The translations under genes and the position numbers were made by a program. The notes under the pieces were generated by a model. That model searched no databases, was not told the DNA's origin, and saw only the letters and a list, made by a program, of their open reading frames with translations. A DNA stretch of 64,000 nt, from contig JAUSMA010000067.1 in assembly GCA_030645475.1 (NCBI GenBank), positions 62,001-126,000 on the forward strand, in the 5' to 3' direction. Origin of the DNA: Nitrospirota bacterium (lineage in GTDB: Bacteria; Nitrospirota; Nitrospiria; Nitrospirales; Nitrospiraceae). The first letter of the stretch is position 1. The number at the start of each line of letters is the position of its first letter. Positions 13,406 to 32,774 of the stretch are shown one piece after another.

Positions 13406-14179
13406 ATGGTCGAACGATTTGAAGTCGCGTTGAATACCCCGGCCGGGCGACTGACCACGGCCATCGACGTGCCGACGGGACTCATCCCCATCACCGCAAT
13501 TGTCCCGGTGACGCGCCGCCTGGGGGAAGAAGCCGCAGAGCTGGAAGTCCACCAGGCGCGTGAAGCAGGCCTCACCATCTCCTGCAAGTTGGGCTGCGCC
13601 GCTTGCTGCCGCATGCTGGTTCCACTCTCCGCACCGGAGGCGTTCGCTCTCCGCGAATATGTGGAGCAGTTGCCGACCGATCGACAAGCCAAGCTGCAAC
13701 AGCGCATCAGCACCACGAAAGATCGCTTGACGCGTGAGGCTGTGTGGGATCGGCTCAACGATGTCGCGGAGGCTTCCAGGCCGATGCCGGACGAAGAACT
13801 CGACCCGATCAACCGGGCCTACTATGCGTTGAGAATCCCCTGTCCCTATTTAGAGGATGAGATGTGCTCGATCTACGAGGCCCGACCGGCCGCCTGCCGG
13901 GAGCTCCTCGTCACCTCACCGGCGGAACTCTGTCAGGATCTGGTGCAGAATCCGGTGACCCCTCTGCCGGTCTCGATGCGCATTGGGTCCATCCTGGGGC
14001 TGGTCTGGGGAACATTGACCGGTTCTCCGCCTCGACTCATCCCGCTCCCGATGGCCTTGGAATGGGCCGAGCGGCACGAAGAAGAATCCCGACGGACCTG
14101 GCCGGGCTCATCCCTCCTGGACCAAGTCCTCGACAACATGTGGCGGTTTCTGAGCCAGGCGTTTCAGCAGAAGAAGTGA
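13406..14179 (+). CDS. YkgJ-family cysteine-cluster protein (second paralogue)
   Basis: The product has 257 residues with the family cysteine pattern: CKLGCAACC at about residues 54-62 and CPYLEDEMCSIYEARPAAC at about 139-157. It has longer N- and C-terminal extensions than the paralogue at 1046-1675; the C-terminal part (LVWGTLTG, LIPLPMALEWAE) is helical. The cysteines likely bind a metal or Fe-S cluster. The ATG follows directly on a heptamer-repeat array that seems to provide its ribosome binding site. The stop falls in the first arm of another inverted heptamer repeat (14174-14271). Confidence 0.85.
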   Translation: MVERFEVALNTPAGRLTTAIDVPTGLIPITAIVPVTRRLGEEAAELEVHQAREAGLTISCKLGCAACCRMLVPLSAPEAFALREYVEQLPTDRQAKLQQRISTTKDRLTREAVWDRLNDVAEASRPMPDEELDPINRAYYALRIPCPYLEDEMCSIYEARPAACRELLVTSPAELCQDLVQNPVTPLPVSMRIGSILGLVWGTLTGSPPRLIPLPMALEWAERHEEESRRTWPGSSLLDQVLDNMWRFLSQAFQQKK

Positions 14180-14271
14180 TGGGTGATGAGTGATCAGTGA
14201 TGAGCCGTTACGCTAGACCTCTATGACCTTCCACTCCTTACTCATCACTCATCACTTATCACCGATCACTT
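14174..14271. repeat. inverted heptamer-repeat hairpin, GTGATGA type
   Basis: The arm at 14174-14204 and the arm at 14241-14271 are reverse complements over 31 bases with three mismatches. Each arm is built from 7-base units of GTGATGA type. A 36-base spacer separates them. The left arm overlaps the end of the YkgJ gene and the right arm lies just before thrH, so the RNA would form a long hairpin between the two genes. Confidence 0.75.
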
Positions 14272-21235: not shown

Positions 21236-21320
21236 GGCAAGGGGTGAGTGGCGAGAGGAGAGGGGTACCGGTTCTGAGATCTTTTTCCACTAGCCTCTTG
21301 CCTCTAGCCTCTGGCCCATT
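21236..21320. repeat. inverted heptamer-repeat hairpin between two tatA genes
   Basis: The left arm at 21236-21263 consists of units GGCAAGG, GGTGAGT, GGCGAGA, GGAGAGG. The right arm at 21293-21320 consists of GCCTCTT, GCCTCTA, GCCTCTG, GCCCATT. They are inverted copies around a 29-base spacer. The RNA hairpin would lie just upstream of the second tatA gene. Confidence 0.7.
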
Positions 21321-22211: not shown

Positions 22212-23681
22212 TCAGCGAGGTCGGATATAGGCGTGATAATAATCGACAGGGCTCGGTGGTGCGGTTAAGGCGATCATAAACGACTGGGGGTCGTAGCCAA
22301 TGGCTTCGAGGTCCTTCGAGGCCGACATCAGCTCTTCTTCTGTGAGATAGGCGACGGTGTCGGGAATCCCTGTCGGCTTCAGCGCACGCACGAGGGCCTG
22401 GAGCATCTCTCGCTCCTCCGGTGGCATCTCTAACGGAATGGGAAAGTCCAGCTGGCGCGCATAGGGACTCTGATAGGTCTCGTTCAATGCAAGAAGGGTC
22501 TTGAGCATCAGCCGGTCCTGCTCCCACGGCGCCATGCTCGTGCCGGCGGAAGGGTGGGTGGCCATGAGATCCATCAAGGTCAAGACGTTGGTCCCTAAGC
22601 TGCGCCCTACGAATTCACGCTGGCTCTCGATGGTCATGATGCCGGCCTCGACCTGCTTGGCCACCGCTTCGGCCAATGCAAAGTTGACCATGAAACTCTG
22701 TTGCCCGCCGAATTGACCATAGCAGGGCTTCTCCGGATCGTTCAGCACATCCATATCAGCCGTGCCCGCGTCGAAACTGCTGAACCCGATCGCATCGGGA
22801 GCCAACAGACGCTTGGCTTCTTTGATTGTGGCATAGGCCCCCATATTGACCGGAACCACTACCTGCTCATCGATACACTTGAGGAACTCCGTGATGGTCT
22901 TTCGGTACGGGACTTCTTTCCATTCGACCGTCCGATATTCACGCTCCCACACCAGGTCGTCGAGAAACGGGGGAAAGCCCTTGAGCACTTCCACATCCAT
23001 GGCCTCGAACGCCCGGACAAAGGCCGCCCAATCGGAAATCTTCGCATGCAAGGCTTCGCTCAAGTTCGGCCGGAGGAACTCTTCTTCGATATCGTTCGCC
23101 TGCCGCGACATCAATTTCGTCGGGAGGTCGTTCCACAATTCGTTACAGAAGATGCGGTCCACGCTGCCATCCGCGATACCTTCAAGCCGATCCACGGTCC
23201 CTCGATGTGTCTCGATCCGATCGCGGTGAGACGCTAGTTCCGGATGAGACAACGCTGCATCGAGCACCGATTGCTCCCAATCGACCAGCACATAACGAAT
23301 GCGGGGATAGATCGTTCCGTCTTTGTCCAGAACTTTCAAGTGGCTGAGAAAACAGGCGGCAAGGTTGCCGTTGCCAGGGCCCCATTCGTGGACGACCAGG
23401 CGAGGGGCGAGGGGCGAGGGGCGAGGGGCGGAAGCATCATCCGCTTTCCCACTTGCCTCTTGCCTCTTGCCCCTGGCCTTCTCGCGAGCGATTACACGTT
23501 CGTAGTAATCGGTCGCGAGGGCATGGGCGAGCCGATAGTCGGCTGAGGCAAACGTTTGGTAGAAACTGCGGATCTGATCGCCGCGAAAACGGTAGAAGAG
23601 CCTATTGATGTGGACTTGCCACTGGTCGACCGGTTTATAGTCGCCGATGAGCTGCGGTAAGGCGTCTGCGTCTTGTAGCAT
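22212..23681 (-). CDS. MidA-type class I SAM-dependent methyltransferase with in-frame repeat insertion
   Basis: The product (489 aa) has the SAM-binding motif VVHEWGPGNGNLAACFL at about residues 97-113 and downstream segments VLVDWEQSVL and IFCNELWNDLPTKL, as in the MidA/NDUFAF7 group (SAM-dependent methyltransferases; NDUFAF7 modifies a complex I arginine). Residues 67-95, just before motif I, are encoded by an inverted heptamer-repeat hairpin (23399-23483), giving low-complexity Arg/Ala/Pro-rich sequence that keeps frame. The insertion probably lies in a surface loop. Substrate is not deducible. The gene ends 8 bp from an inverted-repeat element. Confidence 0.78.
   Translation of the reverse strand: MLQDADALPQLIGDYKPVDQWQVHINRLFYRFRGDQIRSFYQTFASADYRLAHALATDYYERVIAREKARGKRQEASGKADDASAPRPSPLAPRLVVHEWGPGNGNLAACFLSHLKVLDKDGTIYPRIRYVLVDWEQSVLDAALSHPELASHRDRIETHRGTVDRLEGIADGSVDRIFCNELWNDLPTKLMSRQANDIEEEFLRPNLSEALHAKISDWAAFVRAFEAMDVEVLKGFPPFLDDLVWEREYRTVEWKEVPYRKTITEFLKCIDEQVVVPVNMGAYATIKEAKRLLAPDAIGFSSFDAGTADMDVLNDPEKPCYGQFGGQQSFMVNFALAEAVAKQVEAGIMTIESQREFVGRSLGTNVLTLMDLMATHPSAGTSMAPWEQDRLMLKTLLALNETYQSPYARQLDFPIPLEMPPEEREMLQALVRALKPTGIPDTVAYLTEEELMSASKDLEAIGYDPQSFMIALTAPPSPVDYYHAYIRPR
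23399..23483. repeat. inverted heptamer-repeat hairpin inside the methyltransferase gene
   Basis: Four-plus units of GGCGAGG at 23399-23430 face units GCCTCTT, GCCTCTT, GCCCCTG, GCCTTCT at 23455-23482. The hairpin lies wholly inside coding sequence and contains no stop in the coding frame, thereby adding about 29 residues to the protein. Confidence 0.75.
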
Positions 23682-23902: not shown

Positions 23903-23946
23903 CCTCTCACCTTGACAGCTCCAAGCGACCGGTGTACCAAGAAGAT

Positions 23947-24534
23947 ATGGCGAGAGGCGAGAGACGAGCGGGGCGAGGGGCAATGGTAGCGGTCATTGTC
24001 ATGGCCCTCTCGGCACTGCCTGGGCTGCAGGCGGCGGAGTTGCCGATCACCAAAAATCCTCCGATCCCTGATTTTCAGAATCGCCCGCAAGATGTCGTCC
24101 CCTACAACTTCGATGCCCCTCCCCAAGGCATGTTCCTCAGCATTACGACAGCAGAAGGGTTCGACGAAGAACTCGGCTTTCAACGTACGCATGAGATTGT
24201 GCCGGTGAAACCGACCGACCGGTTCCGCCCCGATACCCCAGCCGTCTTCATTGTGTTCCACCTGCACCAGCATTATCAGGGGTTCAAGGTATTCGGACAG
24301 CTCTTCCCGGAAACAGTCGCGGGCCTCGATCCCGCCGTGATGATCGGGCAGGATGCCATGCACATTGCGCTGGAGGACGAAAGCGGCTACCTCACGCTCT
24401 CCCCTCCACAAGACGCATGGAAGCCAGGCAGATACAAAGTGGACATTCACGTGGGAGAACAGATCAACGAGATGAGCCTGATGGGGACCATGCGCTTCAC
24501 CGTCGCGGCGTCCGACGCCGCGACGGTGAAGTAG
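23947..24534 (+). CDS. secreted hypothetical protein
   Basis: The mature part is a compact beta-rich domain with the segments VVPYNFDAPPQGMFLSIT, FIVFHLHQHYQGFKVFGQ and GRYKVDIHVGEQINEMSL; no known family is recognised. The N-terminus is a signal peptide with core MVAVIVMALSALPG and cleavage near QAA. The start at 23947 gives an Arg-rich n-region that is encoded by heptamer repeats; the ATG at 23983, directly behind GAGGGG, is the alternative and would lack positive charge. Heptamer arms lie on both sides (23949-23982 and 24622-24649). It is probably periplasmic. Confidence 0.65.
   Translation: MARGERRAGRGAMVAVIVMALSALPGLQAAELPITKNPPIPDFQNRPQDVVPYNFDAPPQGMFLSITTAEGFDEELGFQRTHEIVPVKPTDRFRPDTPAVFIVFHLHQHYQGFKVFGQLFPETVAGLDPAVMIGQDAMHIALEDESGYLTLSPPQDAWKPGRYKVDIHVGEQINEMSLMGTMRFTVAASDAATVK
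23949..23982 (+). repeat. heptamer array at the start of the secreted-protein gene (left arm)
   Basis: Units GCGAGAG, GCGAGAG, ACGAGCG, GGGCGAG, GGGCAAT run through 23950-23984. The inverse type is found beyond the gene at 24622-24649, so the secreted-protein gene could be cargo between two arms, like the DUF559 and four-helix-bundle genes. Confidence 0.55.
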
Positions 24535-31649: not shown

Positions 31650-32774
31650 CTACATCGGCACGATGCCTTTCAAGACGTAACTCGCCACCAGCACCAACAG
31701 CATAGCCGCAATGAACAGCCCCTCCGCCAAGGCCGCCGTTACCCCCACATGCCCATCCGCCGGCTCGACCTGTTTCTGAAGGCCGTCCAACCAATGAGCC
31801 GTTGAGACGAGCAGCACAGCGGTCGTCACAAACAATGAGCCGGTCGTCATCCCTAATCCCAGTCCCACGAAACTACGAGTCAGTGACCCTGACAGCCAGG
31901 CCGGACGCCATGCCGATTGCACCGCCCACAAGACATGCCCCACGAGTCCCGCCAGAGTGAGCAAGACGCCACTCCATAACAACTGCTGATAGGGCCAGGC
32001 CTCCGACGGGAGCTGCACGATCGTCCACACGAACGCGAGAGCCACCACAAAATACGGCGTCATTCGACAGAGAGCGAGTCCAGCCGCAGCCCGCCATTCT
32101 CGCCAAGGATGGACGGCAATCGCTCCCATGACACAACCGAGAGCCGCTCCTCCAACTACGTCGGTCAGATAGTGAGACCCGCGAAAAATCCGGCTGGCAG
32201 CAATCGCCACAGCGACAACGAGAATGGGCCATCTCGCTCGCGGAAACTTCGCGGCCAATACCGTGGCGACCGCGATCGCTGCTGCCGCATGGCCAGACGG
32301 AAACGAATCCCATCCGCTCCCACCGGCTGGAGAGAGTTCAAGATTTCCGGCATGCATAAACTTGGGGCGAGGGCGGCCAATCACATGTTTCACAATATTC
32401 GCAACCACCGCCACGAGACCATGTGCAATGAGGCTTTGCCATCCGGCGTCTTTCCACTGCGGGCGTTTCAATCCGTACCCGACCGCCAGCAACAGGAGGC
32501 TCAGGAGCACCAGCGACTCCCCCTTGCCGAGGCGGTCACCGAGATCGCTGAACTGAACCAGCCAGGGATTAGGGGCGGAACCGACCGGAGGATAGAGGGA
32601 ACGGACAAACCGGGTCAGCGGCACATCCCAGTCAAAGAGCCCTACGAAGACAAGAATGAGCGCAACGAAAGAGCAAGCAAGAGGCACGAGGCGAATGGCA
32701 AGAGGTGGGACAGCAAGAAGCTGACTTTCCTGCCTCTCACCCCTCGCCCCTTGCCCATTGCCAGACGAAGTCAC
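31650..32774 (-). CDS. PAP2-superfamily membrane phosphatase
   Basis: The three PAP2 motifs are present: KHVIGRPRP (motif 1), FPSGHAAA (motif 2, after WDS) and SRIFRGSHYLTDV (motif 3 with the nucleophilic His). Several membrane helices surround them and more follow at the C-terminus (374 aa, longer than average). Such enzymes dephosphorylate undecaprenyl diphosphate or lipid phosphates. Residues 4-33 are encoded by an inverted heptamer-repeat hairpin (32677-32765), so the N-terminus is low-complexity. The GTG start at 32774 overlaps the stop of the PD40 gene by four bases (GTGA). A later start could yield a shorter protein; I see no good site. Confidence 0.82.
   Translation of the reverse strand: MTSSGNGQGARGERQESQLLAVPPLAIRLVPLACSFVALILVFVGLFDWDVPLTRFVRSLYPPVGSAPNPWLVQFSDLGDRLGKGESLVLLSLLLLAVGYGLKRPQWKDAGWQSLIAHGLVAVVANIVKHVIGRPRPKFMHAGNLELSPAGGSGWDSFPSGHAAAAIAVATVLAAKFPRARWPILVVAVAIAASRIFRGSHYLTDVVGGAALGCVMGAIAVHPWREWRAAAGLALCRMTPYFVVALAFVWTIVQLPSEAWPYQQLLWSGVLLTLAGLVGHVLWAVQSAWRPAWLSGSLTRSFVGLGLGMTTGSLFVTTAVLLVSTAHWLDGLQKQVEPADGHVGVTAALAEGLFIAAMLLVLVASYVLKGIVPM
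32677..32765. repeat. inverted heptamer-repeat hairpin in the 5' end of the PAP2 gene
   Basis: Units GCAAGAG, GCACGAG, GCGAATG, GCAAGAG, GTGGGAC at 32677-32711 face TGCCTCT, CACCCCT, CGCCCCT, TGCCCAT, TGCCAGA at 32731-32765. The whole hairpin is read in frame as the PAP2 protein's N-terminus, immediately behind the GTG start. Confidence 0.72.

Follow-up and report, generated by a model that had tools for sequence, protein, structure and literature searches.

Recurrent replacement of an in-frame heptamer hairpin in a MidA-type methyltransferase gene of Nitrospiraceae

The window analysed here, a stretch of 64,000 nucleotides from a Nitrospirota bacterium of the family Nitrospiraceae, carries a gene for a MidA-type methyltransferase with an inverted heptamer array inside its coding sequence. 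The gene is read from the reverse strand, and the features of the locus are the following.

22212 to 23681, reverse strand: MidA/COG1565-type SAM methyltransferase open reading frame of 489 residues (PF02636 and structural matches)
23364 to 23387, reverse strand: SAM motif I, EWGPGNGN, immediately after the array (translation; conserved in orthologue alignments)
23399 to 23430, forward strand: G-rich heptamer arm, (GGCGAGG)x4.6, which on the coding strand is the C-rich second arm (TRF and lag-7 scan)
23431 to 23445, no strand assigned: spacer between the arms, with its own small stem in the fold (lag-7 scan and fold)
23446 to 23478, reverse strand: heptamer arm, read on the coding strand as (GGCAAGA)n, where it is G-rich, comes first and has no stop in any of the three frames

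The product is probably a member of the MidA/NDUFAF7 (COG1565) family, as judged from a match to PF02636 (Methyltransf_28; 27.5 bits against a cut-off of 23.3) together with a COG1565 fold in the structural model. The six top structural matches of the model are all COG1565/MidA proteins (two chains of 1zkd, and 4g67, 4f3n, 5zu0 and 5ztz), with modest TM-scores of 0.35–0.49; by sequence alone, the methyltransferase had no match in the PDB. In the AlphaFold model (mean pLDDT 70.7), the array segment lies between the end of helix 39–77 and strand 95–100, and residues 78–90 score below 50. This fits a permissive linker, which a model of moderate quality can suggest rather than prove.

TRF reports 4.6 perfect copies of GGCGAGG at 23399–23430 and four copies of CTTGCCT at 23452–23479. 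Two arms of 36 nt each (23393–23428 and 23449–23484) are 75% complementary, and are better described as imperfect complements around a central spacer of 15–20 nt. The initial annotation had residues ~67–95 encoded in frame by two inverted heptamer arms, directly upstream of SAM motif I (EWGPGNG). TRF, the pairing of the arms and the translation of the reading frame all agree with this, and the in-frame array does, as was also proposed, alter a conserved protein. Nine lag-7 runs scoring at least 10 occur in the window, compared with 0–1 in Markov shuffles, and the same scan yields 0–2 runs for each of the lags 4–6 and 8–13. The sense-strand fold of the array reaches −48.6 kcal/mol (z = −3.45), and none of 200 dinucleotide shuffles was equally stable.

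Two other hairpins in the window lie at the following positions.

14176 to 14269, no strand assigned: hairpin of switching type, (GTGATGA)n/(TCATCAC)n, in the interval that separates thrH from a YkgJ-like gene
32672 to 32762, no strand assigned: heptamer hairpin within the reading frame of a PAP2-type phosphatase, in the part coding for the N-terminus

The site upstream of thrH varies across the genus between arrays of GTGATGA, GAGGCGA and GTTCTGA and no array at all; the collinear relative G028 has a (GAGGCGA)n hairpin at the place of window positions 14176–14269. These arrays switch together with flanking intergenic sequence, as at the MidA site, and a near-empty thrH-upstream site (L122) keeps the mini-hairpin GTGATGAGTGATCACTCATCAC. 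The PAP2 position is also occupied in another genus (L070, 1172–1258) and thus may be a second coding site. A further array (23949–23981) lies at the 5′ end of a 200-residue reading frame (23932–24534), the true start of which is probably an ATG past the array, which makes an intergenic position likely. Unlike the switching sites, the one-armed array that separates two tatA-like genes (21287–21316) has the same sequence in relative G028, which is 92% identical.

Beyond the window, a scan of 1.1 Mb found 94 lag-7 runs, as against 4, 3 and 8 runs for lags 6, 8 and 9; the arrays are, like the STRR repeats discussed below, dispersed tandem units of exactly 7 bp. Eight array clusters were found in ~164 kb, one of them clearly interior to a gene. 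Interior arrays in other genes were sought across a sample of 1.76 Mb, where only weak or spurious cases appeared, barring the PAP2 N-terminus. Array types A and C are commoner genome-wide where MidA bears that type (p ~0.007 and 0.002; 0.07 for type B), in a test that subtracted self-matches partly by estimate and with statistics that ignore kinship.

The polarity of these elements is nearly uniform. In a census of the 1.76 Mb of genome stretches, weighted towards the MidA locus, the G-rich arm came first in 58 of 60 non-redundant inverted heptamer-array pairs (binomial p ~3 × 10^-15), a property that reads the same on both strands. Median lengths are 30 nt for the arm, 23 nt for the spacer and 82 nt for the whole element, and the ends are sharp (GTGAT...ATCAC, AGGC...GCCT). 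The sole two C-first pairs (L004, 3104–3192; L023, 1266–1360) are both of the TCAGC/GCTGA type, which is possibly a separate class of opposite polarity.

We searched 175 genomes of the family, found the gene in 153 and read the segment from LAHALA to GPGNGN in more than 100 orthologues. Nearly every orthologue in the window's genus holds an array at this loop, in differing words, which we assigned to types by eye.

GAGGCAA/CCCCTCG arrays: L001, L002, L007
GGCGTCA/CCTCACG arrays: L005, L010, L015–L018
One-armed CTCAGCA or similar: L003, L011, L014, L019, L024, L025
Period-8 GGGGTAA arrays: L004, L008, L009, L012, L013, L021, L023
CGTCAAA arrays: L006, L030
Arrays in other genera: GTTCGAA (L058), GGCAATA (L068), period-6 GGCTGA (L069), period-9 (L034, L048, L049)

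Short loops without clear repeats also occur in other genera. The lag-7 periodicity is significant in 38 of 69 segments (codon shuffles, p ≤ 0.01), and several others peak at 6, 8 or 9; given the MidA-loop arrays of period 6, 9 and 8 (L069, L034, L048, L049, L004, L038), seven appears to be preferred and not required. The array was seen in more than 50 genomes, among them the complete chromosome of Nitrospira moscoviensis (4,589,485 bases; L157, the same place as L038). In L031, a perfect 10-bp hairpin, CGATCGCGTTGGCAAACGCGATCG, stands just before the MidA array, and smaller inverted repeats are present there in several orthologues. MidA is split over two contigs or partly duplicated in four assemblies of the genus (G030, G013, G021 and G022; pieces L022/L028, L021/L027, L015/L029 and L005/L026), and several of the breaks fall on the array or close to it, as though it hindered assembly.

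Loop lengths range from 24 to 53 residues, with 44 in the window. The initial reading of the array as an insertion holds in that there is extra sequence relative to the shortest homologues (44 versus 24 residues from LAHALA to GPGNG). It fails as a one-off event missing from other Nitrospira: close orthologues are nearly all occupied, mostly by another heptamer, which rules out a simple single insertion. The clean gap of 25–30 residues predicted for homologues was looked for and does not exist, nearly all orthologues in the genus holding different arrays. Even the shortest, near-empty loops keep a mini-hairpin, AAGCGTGAC...GTCACGCTT, and may be reduced rather than ancestral.

That close orthologues each hold their own array at the same place indicates that an old, already occupied loop has had its content replaced time and again. 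A tree of 105 genes, inferred with the loop left out, requires at least 40 changes of array type, compared with a shuffled mean of 54.2 and a possible minimum of 11 for 12 types; the window's type A needs nine changes for its nine rows, that is, it does not cluster at all. Where a gene has a neighbour more than 90% identical, the class (by array type, or by having a clear array or none) differs from that of the nearest neighbour in 20 of 52 cases, and switches occur even between genes 95–96% identical. The trio L001 (type A), L003 (type C) and L023 (type D) is ~95% identical outside the loop. Between L001 and L003, identity is mostly 90–100% along the gene and drops to 28–46% at residues ~60–100.

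Synonymous sites in the flanking codons switch along with the array, which points to replacement of a tract. The extent of this tract varies from the array alone (L005/L008) up to ~45 codons. Across genera, the six codons that follow the array resemble each other more among genes sharing a type (the difference was reached in 0 of 500 label shuffles); the left flank and control stretches, compared likewise, were no more alike within types. Length differs in five cases where a gene and its nearest neighbour share the array type, and in four of them the difference comes to 7 residues (three heptamers, 21 nt).

Translation filters what can occupy the loop. As proposed at the outset, the array is read in all three frames and stop-free arms alone are tolerated. 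G-rich arms usually hold a stop in some frame, and arms that are stop-free in all three frames make up 9 of 15 sense G-arms in MidA versus 7 of 60 arrays outside it (p = 2 × 10^-4). In type B, the clearest case, the right arm complements CGTGAGG, yet every unit of the left arm is CGTCAGG; each TGA has thus been turned into TCA at the cost of one mismatch per heptamer. Among GTSA heptamer dimers, GTCA is found over GTGA in 19 of 24 MidA sense cases and in 1 of 19 outside (p = 1 × 10^-6, with related rows). Type C is present in MidA as the C-rich arm only; its G-rich arm, GTGCTGA, would bring in a TGA.

The comparisons establish the position, turnover, polarity, stop and frame filtering and tract replacement of the MidA arrays. 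As to their origin, we think it probable that a disordered, permissive loop of MidA hosts a heptamer hairpin, similar in kind to those of cyanobacteria, that has been replaced repeatedly by short-tract recombination, combined with local expansion and contraction. In this scenario, the MidA segment would be the coding version of a small repeat class of ~80 bp found genome-wide in Nitrospiraceae, laid out as a G-rich arm of 4–5 heptamers, a spacer of ~20 nt and an inverted C-rich arm. The loop between the N-terminal helix and strand beta-1 would long have held such arrays. Homologous recombination of short tracts with other Nitrospira alleles would swap the array together with up to ~45 codons, and, on either side of a small inverted seed, each arm would gain or lose whole heptamers. 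The only survivors of translation would be in-frame changes and arms free of stops, for example those with TCA for TGA throughout or a C-rich arm with no partner. The hairpin-prone arrays may themselves provoke recombination or slippage, and are probably passengers, either selfish or neutral, and not a part of the protein kept by selection.

Most of the data are accounted for by recombination together with seed-based expansion and contraction. It is from the mosaic identity between alleles, rather than from matched donors for individual tracts, that we infer recombination. Against this explanation, the two arms change jointly and stay complementary, neither of which simple recombination requires unless whole arrays arrive. 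It also counts against it that the left flank does not follow array type and that the tests leave shared ancestry uncorrected. A more tentative possibility is that what is inherited is an architecture, independent of sequence: short tandem units arranged as a polar hairpin, whose word is rewritten freely and in both arms at once, with position, polarity, arm length and, in genes, the absence of stops preserved. If true, this would imply structure-directed copying across Nitrospiraceae genomes, for example by template switching or repair at hairpins.

We consider it unlikely that the arrays are a mobile palindromic element, Rickettsia palindromic or REP/RAYT-like, that has inserted in frame many times independently at one preferred site. 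The dispersed copies, sharp ends, strict polarity and hairpin shape would suit such an element, and in Rickettsia palindromes are already known to sit in frame within genes (PMC10969869). However, the heptamer sequence varies between elements, where a transposase substrate would be conserved, and neither a target duplication nor a clean empty site was found. The flanks of 219 array clusters were searched systematically, and of the 12 candidate matches, listed as six distinct sites, none is a clean, precise junction. Low-copy sites retain mini-hairpins instead, such as GGAAGTGATGGTTGATCACTTCC in L024. The RAYT transposase Y1_Tnp (PF01797) was found neither in the window's genome (G000) nor in several near-complete genomes that carry arrays, and its absence from the former makes RAYT-driven transposition improbable.

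Plain slippage in place, starting from native codons such as GTGAAGCGTGA (VKRE) in a low-complexity loop that tolerates it and with neither recombination nor a dedicated element, seems to us doubtful as the whole explanation. Some length changes are indeed 21 nt, and J-type arrays (GCGTGAC/GTCACGC) match the single-unit inverted seed of the shortest loops. It nevertheless leaves unexplained why flanking codons switch with the array, why array type is linked to genome-wide abundance and why polarity is G-first genome-wide. We judge very unlikely a selected function, whether as a linker that is basic, then acidic, then rich in Pro and Ser, or as an mRNA hairpin that tunes MidA translation. Most loops begin basic and end Ser/Pro-rich, and the fold is more stable than its shuffles, yet loops in relatives shrink to ~7 residues or one arm, excess folding is slight or absent in type C arrays and the segment is disordered in the model. 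Chance or an assembly artefact can practically be dismissed, since, although the array coincides with or adjoins breaks in several metagenome assemblies, the periodicity is far above that of shuffles and the array recurs across genomes, the complete N. moscoviensis chromosome included.

The nearest precedent is the P6b stem of the Nostoc trnL (UAA) intron, in which seven-nucleotide repeats of Class I and Class II form stems of similar structure and very different sequence, and the whole region has been replaced repeatedly, scattered over the tree (PMC4476775). The MidA loop shares with it an inverted seven-base stem at a fixed site in a gene, unrelated words, and whole-region class switches scattered over the tree. 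The hosts differ, in that P6b belongs to a self-splicing group I intron with two main classes, whereas the array described here lies in a protein-coding reading frame and comes in about ten types. The stop and frame filter and the variants of period 6, 8 and 9 also set the MidA loop apart from P6b.

Dispersed heptamer repeats in Nostoc and Xanthomonas are mostly intergenic and under-represented in coding regions (PMC4692102). The cyanobacterial STRR and Xanthomonas heptamers resemble the present class in architecture, being dispersed arrays that are rare in coding regions. They have been described as single-strand arrays able to form G-quadruplexes (PMC4692102), whereas those found here are inverted G-first pairs with an interior coding site. 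Rickettsia palindromic elements, of ~150 bp and grouped in families, occur at many different genes (PMC10969869). Like them, the MidA array is an in-frame palindrome within a conserved protein gene; unlike them, it has no conserved sequence, reuses one site and occurs where orthologues are occupied. REP/REPIN sequences are likewise short, dispersed, imperfect hairpins near gene ends, but the elements here have tandem heptamer arms and no single consensus, and occur in a genome with no RAYT.

The literature searched held no earlier account of heptamer arrays in Nitrospira, and on the same basis four features are new: a host that codes for protein, how many array types there are, variants that avoid stop codons, and the polarity. 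A conserved protein gene with dozens of natural hairpin replacements at one site makes the spread and change of short bacterial heptamer repeats testable by comparison. The coding constraint serves as a built-in selection marker, visible in the TGA-to-TCA arms, the one-armed arrays and the three-heptamer changes, and the near-absolute G-first polarity is a quantitative rule for which any mechanism must account.
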